DNA of 12,657 nt. Source: Clostridia bacterium. Its GTDB lineage: Bacteria; Bacillota; Clostridia; Oscillospirales; CAG-272. Position numbers and translations under genes: made by a program. The stretch is taken from contig JAKSPW010000020.1 in NCBI GenBank assembly GCA_024404435.1, positions 1-12,657 of the forward strand, written 5' to 3'. Below, piece by piece: positions 2,806-12,657 of the stretch (position 1 is the stretch's first letter; every line of letters begins with the position of its first letter). A model generated the notes under the pieces. That model saw only the letters and a program-made list of their open reading frames with translations, had not been told where the DNA came from and made no database searches.

Positions 2806-4940
2806 AAATGGAAAGAACAAGACTCCTCAAAAAAGAAATAGAAAAAAAGCCCGACGGGAAGCCGGCGTTTTCCTATTTCCGATTTTATAAGCTTTATGAC
2901 GGCGACACGGCCGACGTTCCGCGGCTGCGCGCCGAGTCGGTGGCGTCACTGCTCGAAAACGTGCCGCCGCATATCTACGAAAACGACCTCATCGTCGGAA
3001 GCGTCCGCGGTGTGCTCGCAAGCCCTGACGATTCCGTCTCCGGGGCGTGTGAGGAGCTCTGCGGAAAAATCGGTGAGCGGACCTTCCTGACCGGAGTCGA
3101 TCATTTCGCGCCTCATTACCGCATGATGCTCTCCCGCGGCATCCCCGGGATCTTTGCAGATCTCGATGCCTCCGAAAGGGCGCACGCATCGGACGCGAAT
3201 CGGGTGAAATACATCGGTGAGATGCGCCGCGTATGGACGGGTTTTTCGGAAATGGTGCGCTCTTACGCCGAAAAAGCCGAGTCTCTCATCGACACCGCCG
3301 GCTATGACGAAGGGCGCCTCCGCGCGATCGCATCACGGTGCAGGGCACTTCTTGAGCACGCGCCGGAGCACTTTGACGAGGCGCTTCAGTTCGTGTGGTT
3401 CTGCCACATTGCCTTTCAGCTTGAGGGCCGCTACGCGATGGCGCTCGGCAGGATCGACCGGTATCTCCTTCCGTTCTATCTGAAGGACACGGAAGAGGGC
3501 AACCTCACGAGCGACGGCGCCCGTGAGATGCTCGAAAACGTGTTCATGAAGATTTACGAGCGCCGTGCCTTTTTCGGCGGAGACGACGTCGTGAACATCT
3601 GTATCGGCGGCACGGCATTGGACGGCTCGTGCGACGTGAATCCGTTGAGCTACGACGTTCTTCACGCCGTCGGCGGGTGCGGCATCCCCGGCCCGAACCT
3701 TTCCGCAAGGATGATGAAGGACACGCCCGTCGAATTCTACGACGAGTGCCTTAAGGTCATCGGCACGGGACTCGGTTACCCCGCGATGATGAACGACGAG
3801 GTCAACTTGCCGGCGCTTCTGAGCTACGGCTACGACGAGGAGGACGTGGCGGATTACTGCATGGTCGGATGCATCGAGACCGTCCTTCCCGGAAAGCAAT
3901 GGCCGTGGGGAGACGGCAGATTCGGCACCCCGCGATTCTTAGAACCCATTTTCAACCACGGGCACGGGATCATGTCTGACGGCTTTAACGTTGACACGGG
4001 TGACGTTTCGGATATCGTCTCGATGGAAGATTTCATGAAAAAGTTCGAGATACAGCTCGCGTCAGGCGTTGAATATTACGTAAAACACACCTGCGAAAGA
4101 TCGGTCTGCGAAAACGAGGCTGACAAGACCTCCCCGATGCTGTCTCTCTGCTGTCCCGAGTGCATAGAGCGCGGGATCGATATCAATCTCGGCGGCACGA
4201 AATATCCCTCGTCCCACGGTGTGTGCCTGATGGGAGTCGGCACGACGGCGGACTCTCTCGCGGCGATAGAGAAGACGGTCTTCGTCGATCACACGCTGAC
4301 GCTTTCGCAGATCGGCGAGGCGATAAAGGCTGACTTCGTCGGCATGGAGGACGTGAGAGCACTTCTGAAAAGCGCGCCGAAATACGGCAACAACGACGAT
4401 TTCGCGGACAAATACGCGGTATGGTTCGTCGATTTTCTCACCCGCGAATTCAGAAAATATCACATGCCCGACGGCGGTAATTTCTATACCGCCATGGCGG
4501 CAAACACCGCGAATATATACTCCGGTCTCGGCACGGCGGCGACTCCCGACGGCAGACGCGCGGGCGAGCCTCTGTCCGACGCGGCGTCCCCGACGTACGG
4601 CGTCGACGTGAACGGCGTGACCTCGACGGTCCTCAGCCTGACGAAGCCCGATTACAGCGTCGTCGCCTGCGGCTCCGTCGTGAATCAGAAATTCATGCCG
4701 GACGCTTTCGCCGACGGAAACAGAGAAAAGCTTGCCTCTCTTCTCCGCGTGTACTTCGCGCGCGGAGGACAGGAGATGCAGATCAACGCGACGTCCCCCG
4801 AGGTGCTGACCGATGCGATGGAGCATCCCGAAAAATACGGCTCGCTCGTCGTCAGGGTTTCGGGCTTCTCCGCGCATTACGTGACACTCGACCGAAGAAT
4901 TCAGAATGACATCCTGCACAGAACTCAGCAGAGAATATAA
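2802..4940 (+). CDS. glycyl radical enzyme of the pyruvate formate-lyase/dehydratase superfamily
   Basis: This 712-residue protein is shorter than the usual 760-850. The N-terminal region carries the conserved IYENDLIVG (58-66). The active-site loop reads YCMVGCIETVLPG, giving the thiyl cysteine Cys357 and a Glu two residues later (Glu359). This C-x-E spacing is typical of dehydratase or lyase members (glycerol dehydratase, choline lyase) rather than of pyruvate formate-lyase, which has two adjacent cysteines. The C-terminal radical loop is VVRVSGFSAHYVTL with radical Gly688, followed by the expected Q..I..RT tail. The family uses a radical made by a dedicated radical-SAM activase; none is in this window, so it must come from elsewhere. 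The residues after the Glu (TVLPGKQWPWGDGRF) do not match a functional subgroup I know. Its start overlaps the reductase stop by four bases; ATG 2808 is an alternative start. The enzyme would be oxygen sensitive. Confidence 0.9.
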   Translation: MKMERTRLLKKEIEKKPDGKPAFSYFRFYKLYDGDTADVPRLRAESVASLLENVPPHIYENDLIVGSVRGVLASPDDSVSGACEELCGKIGERTFLTGVDHFAPHYRMMLSRGIPGIFADLDASERAHASDANRVKYIGEMRRVWTGFSEMVRSYAEKAESLIDTAGYDEGRLRAIASRCRALLEHAPEHFDEALQFVWFCHIAFQLEGRYAMALGRIDRYLLPFYLKDTEEGNLTSDGAREMLENVFMKIYERRAFFGGDDVVNICIGGTALDGSCDVNPLSYDVLHAVGGCGIPGPNLSARMMKDTPVEFYDECLKVIGTGLGYPAMMNDEVNLPALLSYGYDEEDVADYCMVGCIETVLPGKQWPWGDGRFGTPRFLEPIFNHGHGIMSDGFNVDTGDVSDIVSMEDFMKKFEIQLASGVEYYVKHTCERSVCENEADKTSPMLSLCCPECIERGIDINLGGTKYPSSHGVCLMGVGTTADSLAAIEKTVFVDHTLTLSQIGEAIKADFVGMEDVRALLKSAPKYGNNDDFADKYAVWFVDFLTREFRKYHMPDGGNFYTAMAANTANIYSGLGTAATPDGRRAGEPLSDAASPTYGVDVNGVTSTVLSLTKPDYSVVACGSVVNQKFMPDAFADGNREKLASLLRVYFARGGQEMQINATSPEVLTDAMEHPEKYGSLVVRVSGFSAHYVTLDRRIQNDILHRTQQRI

Positions 4941-8827: not shown

Positions 8828-9964
8828 ATGAAAAAAACACTGGCACTTATTCTGACTGCGCTTCTTGCGGTGTCACTTACACTTGCGGTGTCCGCCGGCG
8901 CGTATAATCCCGCGGGCGGCTGCAAGACGGCTGTCAACGTCTGCAAGGCAGATCCCGCCGCCGTCGTCAAGGACGGCATCATCGGCGAGGGCGAATATCG
9001 CGAGATCGAAGTCAACCGCGATCCCGATGCGACCGACCTCATGCTCTCCTACCTCAACGCAGCTCAGTATACACAGGCAGAAGATTTTTTGCAGAACGTA
9101 CACTTCTACACGTCGTGGGACGAGATCCACGGACTGAATTTCGCCATCGTGTCAACGCTTCTTGAAGACCCGTGGTGCGAGACTCCGCTTCCCGCTCCGA
9201 ATGCCGGCGACGGCTTCCTCTTCCAGTTCGGCTCAATGTACAGAGTCTGCGCGTCGGAAGAGAACAAGAGCCTTGTTAACCGCGGTATCGGCATCAACAC
9301 CACGACGGGCGAGATCCTTATCGGTGACTACGACGAGAACGGCTATACGGGTTCTCTCGACCTGCAGGCAGGGCGTGACTACACCGTCGCCGTCAACGGC
9401 AGAACGGTCACGTATGAATTCTCATATCCTCTCGCATCCGTAGTCAAAGCCGAAAACATCGTCGACGGTGCTCCGACCGAAGGCTACACGGTATGGATCG
9501 ACCTTACCGCAACGGGCGGAAGTGTCGGCAGAGAGCAGGAAAACGGCGCGATAACTTATGCAATATCGCTCGGTGACTCCGGATACATGGCAACGTGGAA
9601 TCAGTTCACCGAGCCGTCACATGCAAAGGCGGTCTTCACGAACGATCCCGTAGTCGAGGCAGCACCCGACACGACGACGGACGCAGATATTGATCAGCCC
9701 TCGTCCGGCGGAGATTCGGAAACACCCGGCACGGAAGACACGACCGGCCCCGTCGACACCGATAACGGACAGAGCGAAACGACCGAAACGAAGGGCACCG
9801 AGCCCGTCGCTCCGAAGGAAAACAACGTCCCGACCGATACGACGAGCAGCGAGACCGCAAAGGAAAGCGGCAAGGCTCCGGCAACGGCAGACCCGATCGT
9901 GACAGCAGCTCTCGTTTCCGGCGTATCCGCACTCGGCTTCACCTTCTGCAAAAAGAGAAAATAA
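8828..9964 (+). CDS. secreted CBM9/DOMON-like surface protein, copy 1
   Basis: This 378-residue protein starts with a signal peptide, MKKTLALILTALLAV...SAGA (1-25). Residues about 45-272 form a beta-rich domain opening with VVKDGIIGEGEY and containing NFAIVSTLL and a later TYEFSYPL strand. This is the layout of CBM9/DOMON-like sugar-binding domains in clostridial surface proteins, a moderate-confidence assignment. Residues 279-349 are a Thr/Asp/Glu/Ser/Pro-rich linker without large hydrophobics, suited to crossing the cell wall. The end is A350-P-A-T-A-D355, a hydrophobic stretch 356-374 and the tail CKKRK. That arrangement is a sortase-type sorting signal with APATA in place of LPxTG. CGGAGGT at 8811-8817 is the ribosome site. 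It has its own promoter at 8752-8780. Copy 2 differs only at residues 19 and 21. A role as a wall-anchored glycan-binding protein is inferred; no catalytic motif is visible. Confidence 0.85.
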   Translation: MKKTLALILTALLAVSLTLAVSAGAYNPAGGCKTAVNVCKADPAAVVKDGIIGEGEYREIEVNRDPDATDLMLSYLNAAQYTQAEDFLQNVHFYTSWDEIHGLNFAIVSTLLEDPWCETPLPAPNAGDGFLFQFGSMYRVCASEENKSLVNRGIGINTTTGEILIGDYDENGYTGSLDLQAGRDYTVAVNGRTVTYEFSYPLASVVKAENIVDGAPTEGYTVWIDLTATGGSVGREQENGAITYAISLGDSGYMATWNQFTEPSHAKAVFTNDPVVEAAPDTTTDADIDQPSSGGDSETPGTEDTTGPVDTDNGQSETTETKGTEPVAPKENNVPTDTTSSETAKESGKAPATADPIVTAALVSGVSALGFTFCKKRK

Positions 9965-10050: not shown

Positions 10051-11187
10051 ATGAAAAAAACGCTGGCACTTATTCTGACTGCGCTTCTCGCGGTGTCCTT
10101 GACAATTGCGGCCTCCGCCGGCGCATATAATCCCGCGGGCGGCTGCAAGACGGCTGTCAACGTCTGCAAGGCAGATCCCGCCGCCGTCGTCAAGGACGGC
10201 ATCATCGGCGAGGGCGAATATCGCGAGATCGAAGTCAACCGCGATCCCGATGCGACCGACCTCATGCTCTCCTACCTCAACGCAGCTCAGTATACACAGG
10301 CAGAAGATTTTTTGCAGAACGTACACTTCTACACGTCGTGGGACGAGATCCACGGACTGAATTTCGCCATCGTGTCAACGCTTCTTGAAGACCCGTGGTG
10401 CGAGACTCCGCTTCCCGCTCCGAATGCCGGCGACGGCTTCCTCTTCCAGTTCGGCTCAATGTACAGAGTCTGCGCGTCGGAAGAGAACAAGAGCCTTGTT
10501 AACCGCGGTATCGGCATCAACACCACGACGGGCGAGATCCTTATCGGTGACTACGACGAGAACGGCTATACGGGTTCTCTCGACCTGCAGGCAGGGCGTG
10601 ACTACACCGTCGCCGTCAACGGCAGAACGGTCACGTATGAATTCTCATATCCTCTCGCATCCGTAGTCAAAGCCGAAAACATCGTCGACGGTGCTCCGAC
10701 CGAAGGCTACACGGTATGGATCGACCTTACCGCAACGGGCGGAAGTGTCGGCAGAGAGCAGGAAAACGGCGCGATAACTTATGCAATATCGCTCGGTGAC
10801 TCCGGATACATGGCAACGTGGAATCAGTTCACCGAGCCGTCACATGCAAAGGCGGTCTTCACGAACGATCCCGTAGTCGAGGCAGCACCCGACACGACGA
10901 CGGACGCAGATATTGATCAGCCCTCGTCCGGCGGAGATTCGGAAACACCCGGCACGGAAGACACGACCGGCCCCGTCGACACCGATAACGGACAGAGCGA
11001 AACGACCGAAACGAAGGGCACCGAGCCCGTCGCTCCGAAGGAAAACAACGTCCCGACCGATACGACGAGCAGCGAGACCGCAAAGGAAAGCGGCAAGGCT
11101 CCGGCAACGGCAGACCCGATCGTGACAGCAGCTCTCGTTTCCGGCGTATCCGCACTCGGCTTCACCTTCTGCAAAAAGAGAAAATAA
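10051..11187 (+). CDS. secreted CBM9/DOMON-like surface protein, copy 2
   Basis: This 378-residue paralogue is identical to copy 1 except for Leu19Ile and Val21Ala in the signal peptide. Both changes are conservative and keep the hydrophobic core. At DNA level it carries nine substitutions within codons 4-25 and, by eye, none in the remaining codons. The mature domain, linker and APATA-type sorting signal are therefore the same. CGGAGGT at 10034-10040 is the ribosome site. It starts 86 bases after the copy 1 stop and has only a degraded promoter of its own, so the pair is likely one transcript. The second copy mainly raises dosage unless the signal-peptide changes alter export or expression. 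Confidence 0.85.
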   Translation: MKKTLALILTALLAVSLTIAASAGAYNPAGGCKTAVNVCKADPAAVVKDGIIGEGEYREIEVNRDPDATDLMLSYLNAAQYTQAEDFLQNVHFYTSWDEIHGLNFAIVSTLLEDPWCETPLPAPNAGDGFLFQFGSMYRVCASEENKSLVNRGIGINTTTGEILIGDYDENGYTGSLDLQAGRDYTVAVNGRTVTYEFSYPLASVVKAENIVDGAPTEGYTVWIDLTATGGSVGREQENGAITYAISLGDSGYMATWNQFTEPSHAKAVFTNDPVVEAAPDTTTDADIDQPSSGGDSETPGTEDTTGPVDTDNGQSETTETKGTEPVAPKENNVPTDTTSSETAKESGKAPATADPIVTAALVSGVSALGFTFCKKRK

Positions 11188-11298: not shown

Positions 11299-12390
11299 AT
11301 GATCAGTCCCAACGAAAAAATCAGAATAGGTATCATCGGCTGCGGCGGCATCGCAAACGGAAAGCACATGCCCTCGCTGAAGAAGCTTCCCGACGTTGAA
11401 ATGGTCGCTTTCTGCGACATCATCGTAGAGAGAGCAGAGAAAGCAAAGGCAAACTACGGTACGCCGGATGCAGCCGTTTACGAAGATTATAAGAAGCTCC
11501 TCGAGGACAAGACGATCGACGTAGTTCACGTCTGCACACCGAACAGAGCTCACAGCTTCATCACGGTCGACGCTCTTGAAGCAGGCAAGCACGTCATGTG
11601 CGAGAAGCCGATGGCGATCAACTCCGCTGAGGCTCTCAAGATGCTCGAAGCAGCAAAGAGAACGGGCAAGACGCTCACGATCGGTTATCAGAACCGTCAG
11701 ACTGCCGGCGCTCAGTACCTCAAGAACGAGGCACTCGCAGGCACGTTCGGCGACATCTACTATGCAAGAGCACTCGCACTCCGCCGCAGAGCAGTCCCGA
11801 CGTGGGGCGTGTTCCTGAACGAGTACGAGCAGGGCGGCGGTCCGCTGATCGACATCGGAACCCACGCGCTTGACCTGACTCTCTGGACGATGGACAACTA
11901 CAAGCCGAAGTACTGCCTCGGCACGTCCTATCATTCACTCAACAATCAGACTCATACGGCGAACGCATGGGGCGACTGGGATCCCGAGAAGTTCACGGTC
12001 GAGGACTGCGCGTTCGGCTTCGTCGTGATGGAGAACGGTGCTACCGTTTCCGTTGAGTCTTCATGGGCACTCAACTGCCTCGACACACACGAAGCAACGA
12101 CGATCGTCTGCGGCACGAAGGCAGGCGGCGACCTCATCAACGGTGTCCGCATCAACGGTGTCCGTCAGGGACGTCAGTATTCGTACTCACCCAACCTCGA
12201 AGCAGGCGGCGTGGCATTCTACGACGGTGACGGCGACGCAGACCCGTCCGCTATCGAAGCACGTCAGTGGATCGCAGCTCTGAGAAACGGCACGCAGCCG
12301 TGCGTTCTCCCCGAGCAGGCTTACACCGTAACGAGGATCCTCGAGGGTATCTACACCTCCGCAAAGACCGGAACGATCTTCACATTCTAA
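11299..12390 (+). CDS. Gfo/Idh/MocA-family NAD(P)-dependent oxidoreductase
   Basis: This 363-residue cytoplasmic dehydrogenase has the length usual for the family. The N-terminal Rossmann fold shows IRIGIIGCGGIANGKHMP (8-25) with the GxGGxA dinucleotide motif, and the strand end VAFCD (36-40). The family's EKP motif is CEKPMAIN (Glu102, Lys103, Pro104), with Lys103 as the catalytic lysine. The C-terminal alpha/beta domain carries GGGPLIDIGTHALDLTLW, in which Asp185 and His189 are the usual active-site pair. Such enzymes oxidise or reduce sugars, inositols or related polyols, and some act in glycoside breakdown; the substrate cannot be assigned. The ribosome site is AGAAAGG (11284-11290). It follows the duplicated surface-protein genes on the same strand with a 111-base gap, has its own promoter and ends in a strong terminator, so it may be a single-gene unit that also receives read-through. 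Confidence 0.92.
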   Translation: MISPNEKIRIGIIGCGGIANGKHMPSLKKLPDVEMVAFCDIIVERAEKAKANYGTPDAAVYEDYKKLLEDKTIDVVHVCTPNRAHSFITVDALEAGKHVMCEKPMAINSAEALKMLEAAKRTGKTLTIGYQNRQTAGAQYLKNEALAGTFGDIYYARALALRRRAVPTWGVFLNEYEQGGGPLIDIGTHALDLTLWTMDNYKPKYCLGTSYHSLNNQTHTANAWGDWDPEKFTVEDCAFGFVVMENGATVSVESSWALNCLDTHEATTIVCGTKAGGDLINGVRINGVRQGRQYSYSPNLEAGGVAFYDGDGDADPSAIEARQWIAALRNGTQPCVLPEQAYTVTRILEGIYTSAKTGTIFTF

Positions 12391-12392
12391 TT

Positions 12393-12419
12393 AAAAAAGA
12401 GCCGCAAGGCTCTTTTTTT
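12393..12419 (+). terminator. intrinsic terminator of the oxidoreductase gene
   Basis: The stem AAAAAAGAGCC (12393-12403) and GGCTCTTTTTT (12408-12418) closes on the loop GCAA and runs into seven Ts. It follows the stop codon by two bases. The hairpin array begins one base after the T-run. Confidence 0.92.
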
Positions 12420-12420
12420 A

Positions 12421-12534
12421 TGCTCTTGTGCACGGCACAAGAGCATATTATGAACTTTCGCTGTGCGAAAGTTCAATTCATGCGCGAAGCGCAATTCATG
12501 ACGAAGTCAATTCATGCGGCACAGCCGCAATTCA
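12421..12534. repeat. array of five triloop hairpins with 5-nt linkers
   Basis: Five perfect hairpins stand head to tail. H1 is TGCTCTTGTGC-ACG-GCACAAGAGCA (12421-12445). H2 is TGAACTTTCGC-TGT-GCGAAAGTTCA (12451-12475). H3 is TGCGC-GAA-GCGCA (12481-12493). H4 is TGAC-GAA-GTCA (12499-12509). H5 is TGCGGC-ACA-GCCGCA (12515-12529). Stems are 11, 11, 5, 4 and 6 bp with no mismatch. Every loop is three bases, and every hairpin starts with TG and ends with CA. Linkers are exactly five bases: TATTA, then ATTCA after each of H2-H5. Stem sequences differ between hairpins while pairing is kept, so structure rather than sequence appears conserved. I do not recognise a named repeat family, and the function is unknown. 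Confidence 0.9.
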
Positions 12535-12657
12535 TCTTTTAATGTACGGATCTTGCTGCACGAAGCCGGGAAAGTAACCGGTTGGAGCCGCGCCGCTTGA
12601 TGTTAAATTCGCACGGCGACCCGCCGAAATCCCGCATGATTTTTTGTTTTAGACGCT
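12535..12657. other. right-edge stretch without a supportable gene
   Basis: No ribosome site or recognisable gene is seen. On the minus strand a 32-residue Arg-rich frame (ATG at 12637, stop at 12541-12539) lacks a Shine-Dalgarno sequence. A second minus-strand frame, without a start codon, reads through to the last ATTCA linker. Plus-strand details are the palindrome AACCGGTT, a small CGGCG-ACC-CGCCG hairpin and a T-rich run near 12640-12650. It may be the end of an element cut by the window edge. Confidence 0.4.

Follow-up and report, generated by a model that had tools for sequence, protein, structure and literature searches.

What does a row of five perfect hairpins do immediately 3' of an intrinsic terminator, near the end of a contig from a Clostridia genome? 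The window, that is, the whole stretch of DNA analysed, is the entire contig C113 of 12,657 bases, and the contig ends 123 nt 3' of the array. The array and its surroundings, as read from the sequence, are laid out as follows.

11299..12390, + strand: upstream gene from the ORF list, 363 aa, NAD(P)-binding oxidoreductase-like, named by sequence appearance
12393..12419, + strand: intrinsic terminator, stem 12393-12403 / 12408-12418, loop GCAA, T-run
12421..12445, + strand: hairpin 1, 11 bp, 3-nt loop ACG, no mismatch
12446..12450, + strand: linker TATTA, off consensus, occurring once
12451..12475, + strand: hairpin 2, 11 bp, 3-nt loop TGT, no mismatch; the covariance-model match begins here
12476..12480, + strand: linker word ATTCA
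12481..12493, + strand: hairpin 3, 5 bp, 3-nt loop GAA, no mismatch; includes GCGAAGC
12494..12498, + strand: linker word ATTCA
12499..12509, + strand: hairpin 4, 4 bp, 3-nt loop GAA, no mismatch
12510..12514, + strand: linker word ATTCA
12515..12529, + strand: hairpin 5, 6 bp, 3-nt loop ACA, no mismatch
12530..12534, + strand: terminal linker word ATTCA
12451..12534, + strand: match to covariance model R1 (four-hairpin arms), 44.2 bits, E 1e-5

The first-pass annotation had described five mismatch-free hairpins with these stem lengths, loops and linkers, placed right behind a terminator, and both the description and the placement were exact to the base. Its uniform five-unit grammar held for hairpins 2-5, which fit the family described below, but not for hairpin 1 and the TATTA linker, which are off the family consensus and lie outside the model match. 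Hairpin 1 occupies the slot where many arrays of the same genome have a GGAGCGAAGCGAGA leader unit, so that in the window copy the first unit is swapped for a long perfect hairpin. The hairpins are not due to chance. The folding energy of the 155-nt array region had a z-score of -10.4 as DNA and -8.2 as RNA, and in each case none of 200 shuffles folded as well. Elsewhere in the window, two tandem genes (8828-9964 and 10051-11187) encode near-identical 378-aa proteins with a few residues different near the start, a near-identity that points to a recent tandem duplication.

Conservation of pairing and the two-armed repeat

The genome to which the window belongs (G000; 1.5 Mb, 248 contigs, 80% complete) holds many such arrays. 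The pattern ATTCATN{6,32}ATTCAT matched 55 times and the reversed pattern not once, and in 18 stretches 20 arrays were parsed with 53 units between two ATTCA words, of which 33 were perfect Watson-Crick hairpins, compared with a mean of 0.26 (maximum 2) for letter-shuffled units. When terminator, array and right flank were searched together by blastn, 14 of the 59 genomes gave matches, the own genome among them; of the matches listed, those in G015, G026 and G033 lay mainly over the terminator part. A covariance model, R1, was built from seven arms of a genome of another genus (G014), with the window not included; it returned 171 matches in 91 sources, the loci scanned being hand-picked, and the window array was among them and thereby falls within the ATTCA-word family. 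Across whole genomes, R1 matched in 16 of 59 (window array, E 3e-5), and arrays of this family are present in relatives, where the first-pass annotation had made absence the outcome that would count against it.

In relatives, hundreds of compensatory changes have left the pairing intact. For the seven arms a MAFFT alignment was combined with a structure written by hand from reading them; 10 of 22 pairs were altered on both sides (shuffles, mean 2.7) and the covariation score was reached by none of 500 shuffles; with the structure slid by -2 columns the score was 0.210 versus 0.219 in register, yet only 40% of cells paired compared with 91.7%. A larger alignment, fitted to the structure and consisting of 145 distinct rows from the best 150 of the 171 R1 matches, paired in 93.5% of cells and carried both-side changes in 837 cells, compared with 242 in shuffles. 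Here slid structures gave covariation of at most 0.074 against 0.571 in register, and again 0 of 500 shuffles reached the score, although two other measures stood out less against shuffles (pairs with both-side changes, 2/500; further pair types, 116/500). The proposal that structure rather than sequence is kept is thus borne out in both alignments.

Fuller copies in many named relatives form a divergent pair, with TGAAT-joined hairpins on the left, a centre and ATTCA-joined hairpins on the right; in 31 of these pairs both arms could be parsed. The genome that supplied the seven arms has 32 R1 matches, and in the loci read its stems differ in sequence between pairs. By eye, the copies in the window's own genome mostly resemble lone right arms, and so does the window copy. 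The suggestion that the array belongs to something larger therefore holds in that the array is one arm of a two-armed repeat, and the larger element is probably mobile.

The leader unit common in the own genome, GGAGCGAAGCGAGAATTCATG, was found exactly in 74 stretches of named species genomes, with titles naming Clostridia, Clostridiales, Eubacteriales, Oscillospiraceae or Ruminococcus and many giving a ruminant gut site. The leader 21-mer had no exact match in viral contigs, a weak test of a viral home since the window array itself is without that 21-mer. An alignment of 25 copies of one leader type showed conservation extending into the flanks, with no clean end and no target-site duplication. 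By eye, the first right-arm unit (for example in L053, L115, L156 and L167) keeps a motif, GGAGCGAAGCGAGA or GTGAGCGAAGCGAAC variants, across different linker words, and the other right-arm units lack such a kept motif; the first-unit motif is a possible recognition site. Further intergenic repeats of the own genome adjoin arrays, among them TGTCATTGCGAGG...GTGGCAATC and GTAGGGGTCGGCGCCCTCGACGACCC (L055, ~2072-2107; L057, ~3476-3700), the former of which we take to be similar to repeats of other bacteria.

Gut-1 and the intervening-sequence protein

The first-pass annotation knew of no named family with this grammar, but one exists: Gut-1 (Rfam RF01706, type sRNA) consists, like the window array, of short hairpins in series with a single recurring linker word between them. 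The word differs (GUGAAAU in the Gut-1 consensus, ATTCA in the window), and the Rfam model spans one arm only. The window matched Gut-1 on the minus strand at 12470-12537 with 21.6 bits (E 0.14) against a curated threshold of 50 bits, and so the window array is not filed as Gut-1; all five matches with E up to 1 in the Rfam scan of the window were under threshold. Gut-1 was reportedly first described from metagenomes. Among 54 loci, all but one of which were picked for an intervening-sequence protein (IVP) gene (the exception, L071, is an ATTCA composite only), Gut-1 reached at least 50 bits in 12 (4/14, 5/20 and 3/20). Of the 59 genomes, 36 had a match above cut-off and 40 a match with E <= 0.001; the control genomes gave matches in 1 of 14, below cut-off. 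Strong matches lie at contig ends of the own genome (C101:2-74, C92:10-86), as if the repeats break the assembly. Reverse transcriptase was also considered as the partner of the arrays, and it showed no association with Gut-1 arrays (P 1.0, 59 genomes).

The gene to which the arrays are linked is that of IVP. On contig C90 of the own genome an ATTCA array is followed by a 120-aa gene and an inverted array; in a profile search the protein belonged to PF05635, the 23S rRNA intervening-sequence protein family, and it resembles the solved structure 2rld, listed with five chains. Some of the fuller copies in relatives likewise enclose or precede an IVP gene, and the window array shares the word and unit grammar of the IVP-enclosing arrays on C90 and elsewhere. 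The PF05635 search found two genes in the own genome (contigs C22 and C90), with none on the window contig, although this stops 123 nt past the array and a gene farther on would escape the search; the C90 pair accounts for the only IVP-flanking arrays there, 2 of the 20 parsed. We know of no catalytic activity of IVP.

This linkage was seen at several levels. PF05635 was found in 35 of 59 genomes and in none of 14 control genomes. An IVP gene was present in 31 of 40 genomes with Gut-1 versus 4 of 19 without (P 5.5e-5), and for ATTCA arms the figures were 14 of 16 with arms versus 21 of 43 without (P 0.008); these P values are optimistic because the genomes are related by descent. Two genomes with arms, G010 and G011 (74% and 86% complete), had no IVP detected. 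At least 8 of the 171 ATTCA arms lay within 400 nt of an IVP gene, with 0.34 expected.

IVP genes in relatives carry the hairpin-and-word design with many other linker words, Gut-1 being one such word class; by eye the words include GTGAAGTT, ATGATGTT, GTGAAAT, AGTTATGA and GCTAAAT. The flanks of 67 of 87 IVP ORFs carry a repeated 6-mer together with its reverse complement (score >= 6), compared with 5 of 74 ORFs used as controls and 21 of 870 shuffled sequences (Fisher P 6e-21), and the remaining 20 IVP ORFs scored below 6. The 87 rows come from 97 IVP ORFs, 10 being excluded for flanks of less than 200 nt, and they count four broken genes as two pieces each (L161, L210, L219, L232) and, at L205, a fragment beside the full gene. 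With the word picked solely for its repetition upstream (79 ORFs), the flanks hold 2.37 copies of its reverse complement, compared with 0.46 of the reversed word and 0.26 of the plain complement. The top words among high scorers comprised 40 distinct 6-mers, including shifted readings of one longer word. Upstream of 34 of the 87 IVP ORFs, the first stem has a second, distant partner beside the word (S1/S1'/S1''); control windows showed this in 24 of 1120 cases and shuffled sequences in 5 of 870. The IVP count may include other repeats near terminators (for example at L231, L233, L235, L237 and L248).

IVP composites also often begin behind terminators, an enrichment that the first-pass annotation had suggested looking for: 22 of 66 begin within 45 nt of one, compared with 2.5% of random positions, a comparison that is not restricted to intergenic sequence. 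Several IVP elements stand directly 3' of tRNA genes (such as L156, L163, L193, L206, L214 and L227). At L143 (own contig C22), L144, L145, L147 and L148, the IVP genes are flanked by plain tandem words, for example CCTTAAG, TTGACAA and TGGAAAG, with reverse complements opposite and no hairpin arrays; such flanks are perhaps the simplest form of the hairpin-array element. L229 contains a pair of 207-nt composites that are 98% alike and may have arisen by transposition or by local duplication; one of the two has no IVP gene adjoining in the available sequence.

Filled and empty sites, DNA and RNA

The site behind groEL allows filled and empty states to be compared among ten genus relatives with a groEL match (in one of them, G011, the sequence ends after 74 nt). 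The own genome has a gene-less ATTCA array there, G008 an IVP element with the word ATGATAT, and G001 and G002 an IVP element with the word AGTTATGA, the last two probably representing one event; six genomes (G003-G007 and G009) have no array in the ~170-330 nt read. G004 is an empty counterpart, aligning to G001, G002 and G008 at the groEL end and again from ~100 nt behind it, with the IVP elements in between. That the elements at this site carry two different words speaks for separate gains, with loss in G004 as the alternative. The elements of G001 and G002 have three (L301) and four (L302) copies of the first hairpin unit, respectively, so unit number appears to change quickly. At the window site, the nearest genus matches of the upstream gene have ~78-80% DNA identity, and the matching genes have no array behind them where the sequence sufficed (L257 and L260 are cut or fall short of the gene end); gene order behind these matches differs within the genus and the own contig stops shortly after the array, which makes this a presence/absence comparison and not a strict empty site. 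The flanks of the arrays on own-genome contig C183 match different contigs in relatives, among the matches listed, and gave no empty site. We infer that the IVP-associated element is mobile.

Our preferred interpretation, to which we assign a probability of roughly 55%, is that the window array is a gene-less solo arm of an IVP-associated mobile element that acts as single-stranded DNA. When the DNA becomes single-stranded, the ATTCA strand of each arm, which makes up the 3' half whichever strand of a divergent pair is read, would fold into successive, very stable GNA/GNNA mini-hairpins; IVP would bind the hairpin rows in cis or in trans and aid copying or insertion of the element, and gene-less arrays such as that in the window would be passengers or remnants.

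The loops are what suggest DNA as the acting form. Among 369 distinct units, triloops were GNA in 123 of 239 cases, compared with 9.9% expected from loop composition, and tetraloops were GNNA in 69 of 125 (GNRA 34, GNYA 35) and UNCG in none, while a C-G pair closed the loop in 299 of 364; of 267 hairpins outside arrays in the same genome, 51 had loops of the GNA or TNC type. According to one report, GNA and GNNA loops on G-C stems form extraordinarily stable DNA mini-hairpins (PMC4686876). In the 31 divergent pairs, GNA and GNNA loops lie on the ATTCA strand of both arms (left, 26/49 and 20/30; right, 23/49 and 17/29), so a transcript of one strand would have the favoured loops in one arm only. 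G.T made up 2.9% of standard pairs compared with 7.6% in 67 tRNAs of the same loci. Among the inner pairs of all arms, 51 were G.T compared with 9 A.C; this suggests that the ATTCA strand is the one that folds, and does not by itself separate DNA from RNA. Loop types, strand and the rarity of G.T together favour DNA mini-hairpins over RNA, and they are compatible with RNA roles.

An alternative interpretation is that the arms are structured RNA, transcribed as a Gut-1-type sRNA or as the leader of IVP mRNA and bound by IVP in autoregulation or in a toxin-antitoxin-like arrangement, with the dispersed copies as RNA genes. The Rfam typing of Gut-1, the marked RNA fold, the alternative S1/S1'/S1'' pairing upstream of IVP genes and the reported role of an IVP relative, Avd, in a reverse-transcriptase system (PMC10053308) would all fit, and at L084 the array, by eye, stands between a promoter-like TTGAAA-N17-TATAAT and the IVP start, directly before the start codon, which would place it in the IVP mRNA. 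We nevertheless consider this alternative unlikely because the favoured loops are on the ATTCA strand in both arms, GNRA is not preferred over GNYA, G.T pairs are few relative to tRNAs and, by eye, the promoter-like site comes after the array in L163, L168 and L172.

Another possibility is that the arrays are a mutational by-product, in which template switching or snap-back synthesis at GNA mini-hairpins perfects short palindromes without selection and slippage spreads the words. The near-perfect Watson-Crick pairing, the choice of loops most stable as DNA hairpins and the differing unit number at the groEL site are as this process would have them, but it leaves unexplained why unpaired linker words are kept as reverse complements between arms, why arrays are linked to IVP genes and why sites are filled or empty, and we regard it as quite improbable. 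That the array is a tandem termination or mRNA-3'-end stabilising element is very hard to credit, despite its position directly behind a terminator and the excess of IVP composites there, because arrays also occur upstream of genes and as divergent pairs and no array stands behind the matching gene in relatives with enough sequence.

Comparison with known systems

Repetitive extragenic palindromes (REP), BIMEs/REPINs and REPtrons are the most obvious mobile counterparts, and the first-pass annotation had suggested a REP-type Y1/HUH transposase. As described in PMC6006769, these are dispersed intergenic hairpins that also form inverted pairs or flank a gene, and the arrays resemble them in being short, multi-copy hairpins next to a guide-like word, with an IVP-plus-arrays layout reminiscent of a REPtron. 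A repeat moved by a Y1/HUH TnpA-REP protein is nonetheless a strongly disfavoured reading of the window array. The Y1 profile (PF01797) had no match in the own genome, at 80% completeness, and Y1 was above cut-off in 7 of the 16 genomes that have ATTCA arms versus 17 of the 43 that do not (P 0.77) and was equally unrelated to Gut-1 (P 1.0). A REP as defined in PMC6006769 has the tetranucleotide GTAG or GTGG at the foot of its hairpin, whereas the foot in the window array is ATTCA; moreover, the stems of the arrays are not conserved in sequence and the linker word varies by element.

Two further systems are comparable on the protein side. Avd, the accessory protein of diversity-generating retroelements (DGRs), is similar to PF05635 by sequence and structure alignment, according to PMC10053308, and a second IVP of the own genome matched bAvd below cut-off; these systems differ in that the presence of reverse transcriptase is unrelated to Gut-1 arrays. 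The intervening sequences (IVSs) of 23S rRNA carry S23p/IVP genes of the same protein family, PF05635, as the array-linked genes. In one published IVS, three tandem heptamers directly precede the start of S23p, and the same paper cites as a hypothesis that IVSs were mobile elements (PMC4990558). The arrays differ from IVSs in sitting, at the loci read, behind ordinary protein or tRNA genes, in having hairpins between the words and in being mostly gene-less, and the window array accordingly stands not inside a 23S rRNA gene but behind a protein gene and its terminator. Descriptions of such arrays, or of IVP with hairpin arrays, were absent from the literature matches listed, in a coverage that lies mostly outside subscription journals.

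We tentatively suggest, with rather less assurance than an even bet would warrant, that these elements form a new class of mobile element, consisting of an IVP/Avd-type protein and two complementary, word-joined arrays of GNA/GNNA single-stranded DNA mini-hairpins, the word being changeable between elements; Gut-1 would be one of its word classes and the rRNA intervening sequences its rRNA-dwelling relatives. If this is true, the class would explain how the long-suspected mobile rRNA intervening sequences move. The arrays also provide a natural system of apparent large-scale selection for DNA mini-hairpins, and the groEL site, as an empty versus filled comparison, makes mobility testable. The family moreover joins three things that have stood apart, namely Gut-1, which has no known role, IVP/S23p, for which mobility has been proposed and not shown, and the dispersed hairpin arrays of gut Clostridia.
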